From Gammaproteobacteria bacterium (GTDB lineage Bacteria; Pseudomonadota; Gammaproteobacteria; Pseudomonadales; Pseudohongiellaceae), in assembly GCA_030828385.1 (NCBI GenBank), contig JAURCS010000010.1, forward strand, positions 1-64,000: a stretch of 64,000 bases of DNA, given 5' to 3'. Shown in pieces: positions 35,813-39,540 of the stretch. The position numbers were made by a program, and so were the translations under genes. Each line of letters starts with the position of its first letter. The first letter of the stretch is position 1. The notes below the pieces were generated by a model that saw nothing but the letters and a program-made list of their open reading frames with translations, did not search any database and had not been told where the DNA came from.

Positions 35813-37288
35813 TTAACCCTGATACTCGAATACCTCGTTGGCATGAGTTAGTGATAGCCGATTACCGGTAGTACTGGGTTCTGTGCGCCCAATAATTTGG
35901 GCATCAATATTAAAACTGTTGGCAACCTTGATTACGGTCTCAGCCTGCTCAGCTTCACAATAGACTTCCATTCGGTGTCCCATGTTAAAGACCTTGTACA
36001 TTTCCTTCCACTGGGTCTTTGATGCGTTCTGGATTGCCTTGAAGATGGGGGGCGTCGGAAACAGCTTGTCCTTGATGAAATGAATGCCGTTGACCGTTTT
36101 TCCATCCAGAGTATAGTCGGGATTATCTGATGCCGGATTCCCGCCAAATTTCATGCACTTGGTCTGGGCTCCTCCGGAACAGTGAATCAGGCCGCGAATA
36201 AGGCCAGGGTGTTCGTCCAGTAATTTATAGATGACCGGGGCATAGGTGCGCGTCGGGCTTAACAGCGCCTCCCCAACACTCAGGCTGGAGTCTGGCAAAG
36301 GGTCTTCCAGTTTATAGGGACCGCAATACATCAATTCTTTGGAGACATTGCCATCAAATGATTCAGGATAATTCTCGGCATAATAATGGCTGAGCATGTC
36401 ATGTCTGGCGCTGGTCAGGCCATTGCTGCCAATACCGCTGTTTTCTTTATCCTCGTAACTTGACTGCCCAGTAGAGGACAGGCCGACAATCACCAGGCCG
36501 GGTTGAATCTGCTCGCCGCTAATCACTTCTTTTTTCTTCATCACGGAGACGGCAACACTGTCCACAACAATGGTGCCGGTCAGGTCGCCCACATCAGCTG
36601 TCTCTCCACCACCACTATAAATATTGACGCCAAAATCCCTTAACTGGGCAAGAAATTTTTCACTGCCTTCTATCAGGGCGCCGACCACCTCACCAGGGCA
36701 GTTCAGGGCATTACGATTAACAGTATTGGAAATCAATATGCGGCCATTGACGCCAACGCAGAGCAGGTCATCCAGGTTCATCACAATGGAGTCCTGTGAA
36801 ATACCGTGAAACACACTGGTGTCGCCGGTTTCCTTATAGGCCAGATAGCCAATGATGGACTTGGTGCCACTCCCATCGGCGTGAATCACATTGCATTGAT
36901 CGGGGTTGCCGGTGAGGTAATCTTCAGTGATTTTGCAAAAGGCTTTGCTGAACAGACCATGATCAAGGTGATCGACAACATTATGCACCTCTGTTTTATC
37001 CGATGAGACCCCTCTAGCCTGATAGCGGCTGGCACTATCACTGACGGCAACTGATTCAGCTACATGATAACCACTGCGATCCTGAGCTACGATGAGCCCA
37101 CGAAACTCCAGCTGACGCATGGCTTTAGCCACGGTATTGGTGGCCAGCTCATACTCAGTTGCCAGAGAGCGGATGCTGGGTAATTTCTCCCCCGGTTTAA
37201 GATCGGCGGTGTTTATCTGGAAATGAATCTGGTCAATGATTTGCTGAAAAACCGGAGTAGGGGCTGTCGGATCGAGTTCAAGTTTCAT
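35813..37288 (-). CDS. Fusion of GntR-type winged-helix regulator and PurM-like AIR synthase
   Basis: 491 residues with two parts. Residues 1-77 are a GntR-type DNA-binding domain: [14 protein letters not shown], then [28 protein letters not shown] and [14 protein letters not shown], closest to the short YtrA-like class. Residues about 88-490 look like the long PurM form of Bacteroidota: HADGSGTKS (136-144), NLDDLLCVG (171-179), [10 protein letters not shown] (226-235), GSNGLTSAR (287-295), SPTRTYAP (344-351), CSGGAQTK (370-377) and VFNMGHRME (433-441). All expected PurM motifs remain, so catalysis is possible. PurM makes AIR from FGAM in purine synthesis. An inverted repeat lies 40-70 bases upstream. 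Such a fusion suggests purine-linked autoregulation. A cyclase that lost regulation, or a binding-only sensor, are alternatives. Confidence 0.85.
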
Positions 37289-37322: not shown

Positions 37323-37360
37323 TTCAACTGTATCACAACTATGATACAGGCTGAGTTGAA
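37323..37360. promoter_or_regulatory. Candidate operator of the GntR-PurM gene
   Basis: A perfect inverted repeat, CTGTATCA (37328-37335), six-base spacer, TGATACAG (37342-37349), flanked by TTCAA (37323-37327) and TTGAA (37356-37360), which also pair. It lies 35-72 bases upstream of the fusion gene and 22 bases past the next gene's stop. GntR-family regulators of this class bind such palindromes. Confidence 0.65.
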
Positions 37361-37381
37361 GCAGCACAAGAAAAGAAAATA

Positions 37382-38649: not shown

Positions 38650-39522
38650 GTGATCAATCCTGGAAAAATTCAGCACTTACTCGACACCGCACTGGAACTG
38701 GCCGTGCCGGTTGCAAGCATGCGTCTGGCAATGGGCGGCAGTATTAATGAGTCCTATCTGGTTACACTGACAGACCAGCGCGAAATATTTGTCAAAACCC
38801 ATCGAAGAGACCGCATTGCGGGCATGTATGCCGCGGAATTCAATGCCCTGAAGCTGTTGTCGCGCTCCAGAACGTTAATAGTCCCGAAACCGCTCTATCA
38901 GGACGAGGACTTTCTGGTGATGGAGGCTTTCAGGGAAGGAGCACCGGCAGCGGACTGGCAGGAGCAGATCGGGCGCGGCCTGGCGTATTTGCACCACAGT
39001 ACCCGACAACGCCAATATGGTTTTGACATGGACAGTTACCTGGGCACCTTCAAACAATCCAACCAGTGGCACGATGACTGGATCGGATTCTGGCGCGATC
39101 GGCGCATCGATCCCCAGTTAACTTTATTGAGAGTGCTGTTACCCGGTCAGGATCCGCTTCTGAAAGCCGCAGATAAACTCATAACTTAGCTTGATAGGGT
39201 GCATGCCTGTGATCCGGAGCCCGCTGTGTTTCTTCATGGCGATCTGTGGTCAGGCAATACGGCGGCCAATGAAAAGGGCGAGCCGGTGATCTTTGATCCA
39301 GCCAGCTATTACGGTCAGCGCGAAGCAGAATTTGGCATGATGCGTCTGTTTGGCGGCTTGGGACCAAAATGTGAAGCAGCCTACCAGGAAGTCTGGCCTT
39401 TCCAGCCGGGTTATGAGCGCCGCATCGAGGTTTACCGTTTGTATCACCAGCTAAATCATCTAAACCTGTTTGGCAGTGCTTATTACAATGACTGTCTGGC
39501 CACAATCCAGCGCCTGATTTAG
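38650..39522 (+). pseudogene. Fructosamine/ketosamine-3-kinase (YniA-like) with an in-frame amber stop
   Basis: Phosphorylates ketosamines formed by protein glycation, and so helps deglycation. The first 179 codons (GTG start at 38650) give the ATP-binding lobe (GGSINESYLVTL, VKTHRR). A TAG at 39187-39189 follows KLIT, and the same frame then continues with LDRVHAC and the catalytic HGDLWSGN and FDPASYYG to 39522. The whole would be 290 codons, the usual length, so this is one gene with a single nonsense codon (for example from CAG or AAG) or a base-calling error. The second half could be started from GTG 39199, but would lack the ATP lobe. Confidence 0.88.
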
Positions 39523-39540
39523 CGTGGTCTATGCCTGGTT

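Follow-up and report, generated by a model that had tools for sequence, protein, structure and literature searches.

A GntR-type DNA-binding domain fused to a long-type AIR synthase (PurM): a putative purine trigger enzyme with a candidate operator upstream of its own gene

The stretch of 64,000 nucleotides analysed here (the window) encodes a protein in which a GntR-type winged helix is followed by a long-type PurM (AIR synthase), and a palindromic candidate operator is located directly upstream of its gene. Judged from sequence, we consider it probable that this protein is a bifunctional AIR synthase with its own gene as the sole target of repression, and hence a purine trigger enzyme of the PutA kind. 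The evidence comprises the conservation of both halves of the protein, the intact PurM residues, the lack of another recognisable PurM in the genome of the window, and a site of high quality that occurs once in each fusion genome searched, at the fused gene.

Architecture of the fusion protein

The gene and the domains of its product are located as follows.

35813..37288, minus strand: gntR-purM fusion gene, 491 aa (ATG at 37288, stop codon 35813-35815)
37058..37288, minus strand: GntR winged-helix domain, residues 1-77 (Pfam GntR at 15-76)
37028..37057, minus strand: linker, residues 78-87
35816..37027, minus strand: long-type PurM (AIR synthase) domain, residues 88-491 (from Pfam, PDB matches and kept columns)

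The frame is open throughout 37288..35813, without an internal stop in the translation. In a profile search with the 491-aa product, Pfam GntR (PF00392) was found at residues 15-76 (E 2.4e-14, 53.2 bits against a cut-off of 27), AIRS at residues 128-247 (3.9e-6) and AIRS_C at residues 412-472 (2.5e-7), the latter two also above their cut-offs. Residues 86-473 match PDB 3mdo (1.9e-133) and residues 85-482 match 3kiz (1.6e-130) by sequence; both structures were deposited as (putative) PurM and exceed the E. coli type in length. The N-terminus matches GntR-type PDB chains, e.g. 6sbs (9e-10). The Pfam and PDB matches bear out the domain borders given in the initial annotation (GntR 1-77, a 10-residue linker, PurM 88-491) and the motifs that it listed, and together with the conserved columns described below (80 of 84) they agree with its description as a long-type PurM with intact motifs, preceded by a YtrA-like GntR winged helix. 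After residue 88 only AIRS domains were found by Pfam, and the listed MocR-type models match within residues 3-122 only. The reduced two-helix C-terminal domain of the YtrA subfamily is absent, as PurM starts at residue 85-88.

Purifying selection acts on both halves. The dN/dS ratio was 0.02-0.23 for GntR residues 1-77 (8 of 12 pairs; dS was saturated in 4) and 0.02-0.13 for the PurM half (9 of 12 pairs), and in several pairs the codon comparison showed a linker looser than both halves. Among 42 fused proteins, the GntR residues P12, Q16, F23, L36, S38, R40, A49, N51, T52, A56, L60, R71 and V76 are the same in at least 97%, the helix-turn-helix residues are nearly invariant, and the stretch from position 76 to R88 comprises 6-20 residues. 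A genome scan, which was limited by its search pattern and gives a lower bound, yielded 79 loci: 43 fused, 34 with an unfused long-type PurM and 2 undecided at contig ends. The recurrence of the same fusion in 43 of these 79 loci contradicts a frameshift or an assembly join between two genes, a concern raised in the initial annotation. It is very improbable that the fusion is an assembly error or that the GntR half is a leftover without a function in DNA binding: no point in favour of either was found, and a leftover would fit neither the near-invariance of the helix-turn-helix residues nor a candidate binding site that tracks the presence of the domain rather than that of the enzyme (see below).

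The PurM half and its place in purine synthesis

In a conservation alignment without L038, L056, L079, L095 and L098, 84 columns show at least 97% invariance across 33 unfused proteins, and 80 of them are retained in at least 95% of the 42 fused proteins, including D138, G141, T142, K143 and G227-A231; alignment A1, of 73 rows, also left out L043 and L053. Key residues of E. coli PurM, taken from PMC5919458, align as D94=D174, H247=H369, T249=S371 and R259=F381. Ser and Phe are also found at the T249 and R259 positions in the PDB alignments of 3mdo and 3kiz, and hence the differences at S371 and F381 are not caused by the fusion. Against the canonical equivalog TIGR00878 the protein scores 98.6 bits, below the cut-off of 236.35, as do all four unfused long-type genes tested; the full-length match to 3mdo and 3kiz and the conserved columns place it among the long-type PurM proteins. 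The window protein and its two nearest relatives (L021 and L022) carry about 17 additional PurM residues (about 382-405), which are lacking in the other 72 aligned proteins. Only Lys252 was specific to the fused proteins at the thresholds used: it is Lys in 42 of 42 fused proteins, Arg in 19 of 19 unfused Verrucomicrobiota and Lys in 2 of 13 other unfused proteins. An interface model built on fused-specific residues was rejected, since Lys252 alone is too little.

The initial annotation proposed a count of further purM genes, and in the genome of the window (completeness 100) none other was recognised, leaving the fusion as the only PurM found. Besides the fusion, TIGR00878 finds one weak hit (E 2.2e-4), which, judged by its neighbours (presumably NusB-like and PgpA-like genes), looks like ThiL. 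Matches to PurN, PurL and PurE were obtained in 21 of 21 genomes searched, that of the window among them. PurN exceeded its cut-off in 15 of the 21, the window's genome being just below (147.6 vs 150.1 bits). With these matches present, FGAM is expected to be made and AIR to be consumed, and since the fusion is the only candidate between FGAM and AIR, we predict that the PurM half is very likely an active AIR synthase that converts FGAM and ATP to AIR.

Within the family, 24 of 138 genomes carry the fusion (in G003 in two contig pieces). A canonical PurM over the cut-off is missing in 21 of the 24; G038, G039 and G073 have both. Among the 114 fusion-free family genomes, 99 have a canonical PurM and 15 do not, many of the 15 being incomplete. 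Two of the 15 belong to genera with the fusion: G013, a 95% complete genome of the window's genus, has PurL, PurN and PurE matches and neither kind of PurM, and G005 also has neither a fused nor a canonical PurM. A canonical PurM is absent from 15 of 17 further genomes reached via fused loci (present in those of L058 and L059) and from four genomes with unfused long-type genes, the completeness not being given for either set. The fusion is hence not the sole enzyme of the AIR step everywhere: in five genomes (G038, G039, G073 and those from which L058 and L059 derive) a canonical PurM is present as well, and these may represent real duplicates or mixed genome bins. PurN (L131:5666-6256, G000:C88, and relatives) scored 131-164 bits in 17 fusion-only genomes vs 234-251 bits in three with canonical PurM, and in the window's genome it is encoded on a different contig from the fusion. 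The purMN pair as a whole may have been replaced from another source.

The PurM half might also be a catalytically dead sensor, AIR being supplied by an unrecognised enzyme. Such a role would resemble that of the aminotransferase-like sensory domain of MocR-type GntR regulators, as described in PMC5320631, and the score under the equivalog cut-off is in line with it. However, four unfused relatives also score low and their genomes lack a canonical PurM, no PurM candidate exists besides the ThiL-like gene, the invariant columns are kept and purifying selection is strong. We regard a dead sensor as quite improbable.

The candidate operator and the direction of control

Three sequence elements precede the fused gene.

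37328..37349, no strand: candidate operator, a perfect palindrome (CTGTATCA-N6-TGATACAG) located 39 bp ahead of the start codon
37341..37346, minus strand: -10-like hexamer TATCAT within the left arm of the operator (consensus match only)
37364..37369, minus strand: -35-like hexamer TTGTGC, separated from the downstream TATCAT by 17 bp (agrees with TTGACA at 3 of 6 positions)

All 44 fused genes compared (43 loci and the window's own) are directly preceded by the palindrome CTGTATCA-N6-TGATACAG, with no more than 4 mismatches over its 16 fixed positions. Mismatches numbered 0 in 17 sites, 1 in 16, 2 in 7, 3 in 2 and 4 in 2, so that 33 of 44 sites have 0-1. Upstream of the unfused purM genes the best match has 6-8 mismatches in 34 of 34, that is, the palindrome is found in none. 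L056 and L098, cut by contig ends, were dropped from this count. None of the same-length tiles of the same locus (18-60 each) scores as well in 43 of 44 cases; in L060, 1 of 60 does. Because the pattern was derived from the window and its relatives, the fused loci are no blind test, and the unfused loci and fusion-free genomes serve as the controls. In a whole-genome search, exactly one site with 0-1 mismatches, just upstream of the fusion, was found in 18 of 18 fusion genomes (mostly the more complete of the 24 in the family), and none of the 18 fusion-free relatives searched (out of 114) holds any such site. The site travels with the GntR domain, not with the enzyme. This candidate operator before the protein's own gene, which the initial annotation did not notice, lends good support to the view taken there that the protein acts as a regulator; as a sequence feature, it provides the palindromic operator upstream of a regulated gene that is looked for in the GntR family.

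Arm positions 2-5 are complementary in 43-44 of 44 sites, and variant sites such as those of L052 and L060 stay symmetric. This complementarity would fit a symmetric dimer; E. coli PurM is a homodimer (PMC5919458). GT occupies positions 3-4 and AC positions 19-20 of the 22-bp site; for the YtrA subfamily, PMC4494728 describes a long palindrome with GT and AC distant from the centre.

A wider regulon was considered and rejected, as sites with 2 mismatches are at background level: 15 beyond the own-gene sites in the 18 fusion genomes vs 29 in the 18 fusion-free genomes. Three of these 15 look alike (L159, L160 and L161, from G053, G051 and G050 of genus g7), and one lies 2.3 kb from purE. The copies fall within related reading frames of 572-758 residues, where they encode the same residues WYQQSD, and not in a promoter; their recurrence is probably due to chance. 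The single site with 0-1 mismatches per fusion genome, at the protein's own gene, points to a regulon of one gene.

The left arm of the operator, CTGTATCAT, contains TATCAT. Upstream of it, a spacer of 17 bp gives the highest agreement with TTGACA (mean 2.55 of 6, vs 0.93-1.93 at the other spacers from 8 to 29); 10 of 44 rows have at least 4 matches at 17 bp, and no other spacer has more than 5 such rows. These -35 averages include a wrong row for L062, whose site was missed there as a start codon further upstream was chosen; the operator count finds it. Many loci have a weak -35 box, that of the window matches poorly, and a stricter promoter scan of the window listed no promoter at the operator. 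In 4 of 5 Myxococcota-labelled loci, 0-2 bp separate the end of the site from the start codon as drawn. Since one arm of the operator also contains a -10-like hexamer, and 17 bp is the spacer with the best -35-like match, repression of the own gene is favoured; an overlap with a -10-like hexamer is the usual position of a repressor.

The neighbours of gntR-purM in the window are a GST-like gene, a MATE-like gene and one further gene. A fructosamine-kinase-like gene at 38650-39525 on the plus strand has an in-frame stop at 39187-39189, beyond which, by eye, the frame looks like the same protein continuing. A divergent gene, which we take to be HisH-like, is present in 19 of the 43 fused loci scanned, the window's own excluded (L036, L037, L040, L042-L054, L061, L079 and L099); the intergenic region between it and gntR-purM contains the operator. 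In 18 loci a hisF-like gene is found close to the fusion. No hisF other than the copy next to the fusion exceeds the cut-off in G350 and G490, and in G369 an over-cut-off hisF is on another contig. The HisH-like and hisF-like neighbours link genes of purine and histidine synthesis.

Where the divergent pair is present, the operator between the genes could serve both, which raises the alternative that the fusion protein activates its own promoter or mainly serves the divergent gene. This is unlikely, if less so than a dead sensor, given that the site overlaps the -10-like hexamer and, in the Myxococcota-labelled loci mentioned above, abuts the start codon, and that the window has no such divergent neighbour.

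Distribution and evolutionary history

The fused loci were found at 57-96% identity and derive mostly from gammaproteobacterial metagenome bins; the other labels are Polyangiaceae, Myxococcales or Deltaproteobacteria (five), Planctomycetota (one) and Acidobacteria (two). Labels of single bins are unsafe, as illustrated by L032, which is labelled Klebsiella pneumoniae and groups with other gammaproteobacterial bins on the PurM tree. The labels of L032, L056, L033 and L039 (Klebsiella pneumoniae, Planctomycetaceae, Acidobacteria) are odd against their gammaproteobacterial-like sequences, probably owing to errors of binning or labelling. L053 and L079 are separate contigs from the same bin. Among 390 genomes drawn from the order, 8 matches at E <= 1e-60 were obtained, of which 7 start from residue 1 and one, apparently unfused, from residue 73; the fusion is hence uncommon across the order. 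The possibility, voiced in the initial annotation, that the same fusion is broadly a known family held in part: the fusion is widespread among the loci scanned, but the Pfam and NCBIfam scans returned no model for the whole GntR-PurM architecture.

Two further candidates were rejected. A precursor with separate, adjacent GntR and PurM genes was hinted at by the tblastn rows for L066, L082 and L096, but no GntR match was found next to any unfused gene at E 1e-3; inspection by eye of the upstream frames of these three loci showed no GntR either. Spread on plasmids was dismissed after 6 of 72,556 plasmid records matched at E 1e-20, all of them beginning at the PurM half (residue 88-89), and no fusion was seen among them.

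On the PurM tree (76 rows, with L038, L056, L079 and L098 dropped and the root assumed with Bacteroidota outside), the fused proteins do not form one side of a branch, and 4 changes are needed. The unfused gammaproteobacterial L077 and L095 come first, followed by the fused gammaproteobacterial lineages, within which the unfused Verrucomicrobiota and the fused Myxococcota and one Planctomycetota are nested. This order fits one gain and three losses of the fusion, some forks being weakly supported (such as 85/85 and 89/65). As the nested unfused genes of Verrucomicrobiota have no operator, the GntR domain and the operator seem to have been lost together there. In a weak comparison over 85 columns, the fused GntR halves cluster apart from 18 of the 20 other GntR domains taken from the family, with two outsiders on very long branches inside.

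Proposed mechanism

In the mechanism that we favour, autorepression by an active enzyme, the PurM half would convert FGAM and ATP to AIR and would be the one recognisable enzyme that the cell has for this reaction. The PurM dimer would bring the GntR halves together as a pair, which would bind the one palindrome overlapping the -10-like region of the gene's own promoter. The bound protein would then repress transcription of its gene; the genome search found no second site as good. The enzyme thus probably controls its own production.

The initial annotation suggested that a purine intermediate (FGAM, AIR or ATP) sets DNA binding, which is plausible. That substrate binding loosens the DNA-bound form, so that an enzyme busy with FGAM leaves the promoter and more is made as flux rises, has in our estimate somewhat less than an even chance. 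The full version of this reading is more tentative still: an idle sole AIR synthase would sit on its own promoter and leave it when occupied by FGAM and ATP, with a regulon of one gene and one origin of the fusion, which would have spread between phyla and been undone in Verrucomicrobiota by joint loss of domain and operator. If so, one polypeptide would measure purine flux and set its own dose.

A simple homeostat, in which the active enzyme is an autorepressor without any metabolite effect and protein concentration alone sets repression, is a narrower form of the favoured mechanism, and their probabilities overlap; we give it about the same standing as the loosening by substrate. It would agree with the one good site at the own gene, with a linker of variable length (6-20 residues) that gives no hint of a tightly coupled interface, and with Lys252 as the single fused-specific PurM position. 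However, a plain autorepressor would need no fusion to an enzyme, the fusion is old and kept, and PutA responds to its substrate (PMC8249747).

Comparison with known systems

Autorepression by an active AIR synthase would make the fusion a predicted trigger enzyme, one protein that catalyses and controls expression. BirA, NadR, PepA, PutA and PyrH are the trigger enzymes of E. coli listed in PMC8249747; PurM is not on that list. According to the same paper, PutA binds only the putA/putP spacer and represses without proline. Similar to PutA, the fusion is a metabolic enzyme with a DNA-binding part that appears to bind one region including its own gene. Unlike PutA-type trigger enzymes, it combines a GntR-type DNA-binding domain with a biosynthetic enzyme, and its only target found in the window's genome is its own gene.

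Like the MocR/GabR subfamily, the fusion places a complete domain of an enzyme fold behind a GntR winged helix. The linker in MocR/GabR proteins is longer than in the fusion. In contrast to their aminotransferase-like sensory domain (PMC5320631), the fusion carries a PurM that is very probably active. With the YtrA subfamily it shares a winged helix with almost no other regulatory domain and a long palindrome with GT and AC distant from the centre; the C-terminal part of YtrA proteins is reduced to about 50 residues, and they are mostly encoded with ABC transporter genes (PMC4494728), whereas the fusion has PurM in that place. Its enzyme half resembles the long-type PurM of Bacteroidota and Verrucomicrobiota (3mdo, 3kiz), with residues 86-482 aligning throughout and the same invariant residues. 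In contrast to the fusion, the 34 unfused long-type PurM proteins lack a GntR domain and their genes lack the operator.

A search of open-licence papers found no description of a GntR-PurM fusion, in keeping with the initial annotation, which knew of none. If the proposed mechanism is true, de novo purine synthesis joins the short list of pathways with trigger enzymes, and the fusion extends the range of GntR architectures past the six subfamilies that PMC4494728 counts. The system is small, with one protein, one 22-bp site and one gene, and offers natural fused and unfused versions to compare; this makes it directly testable how, in general, the catalytic state of an enzyme is relayed to a DNA-binding domain across a linker of only 6-20 residues. 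An enzyme doubling as a transcription factor is of a known kind; such a PurM, and a GntR protein with such a partner, are, as far as could be seen, new.
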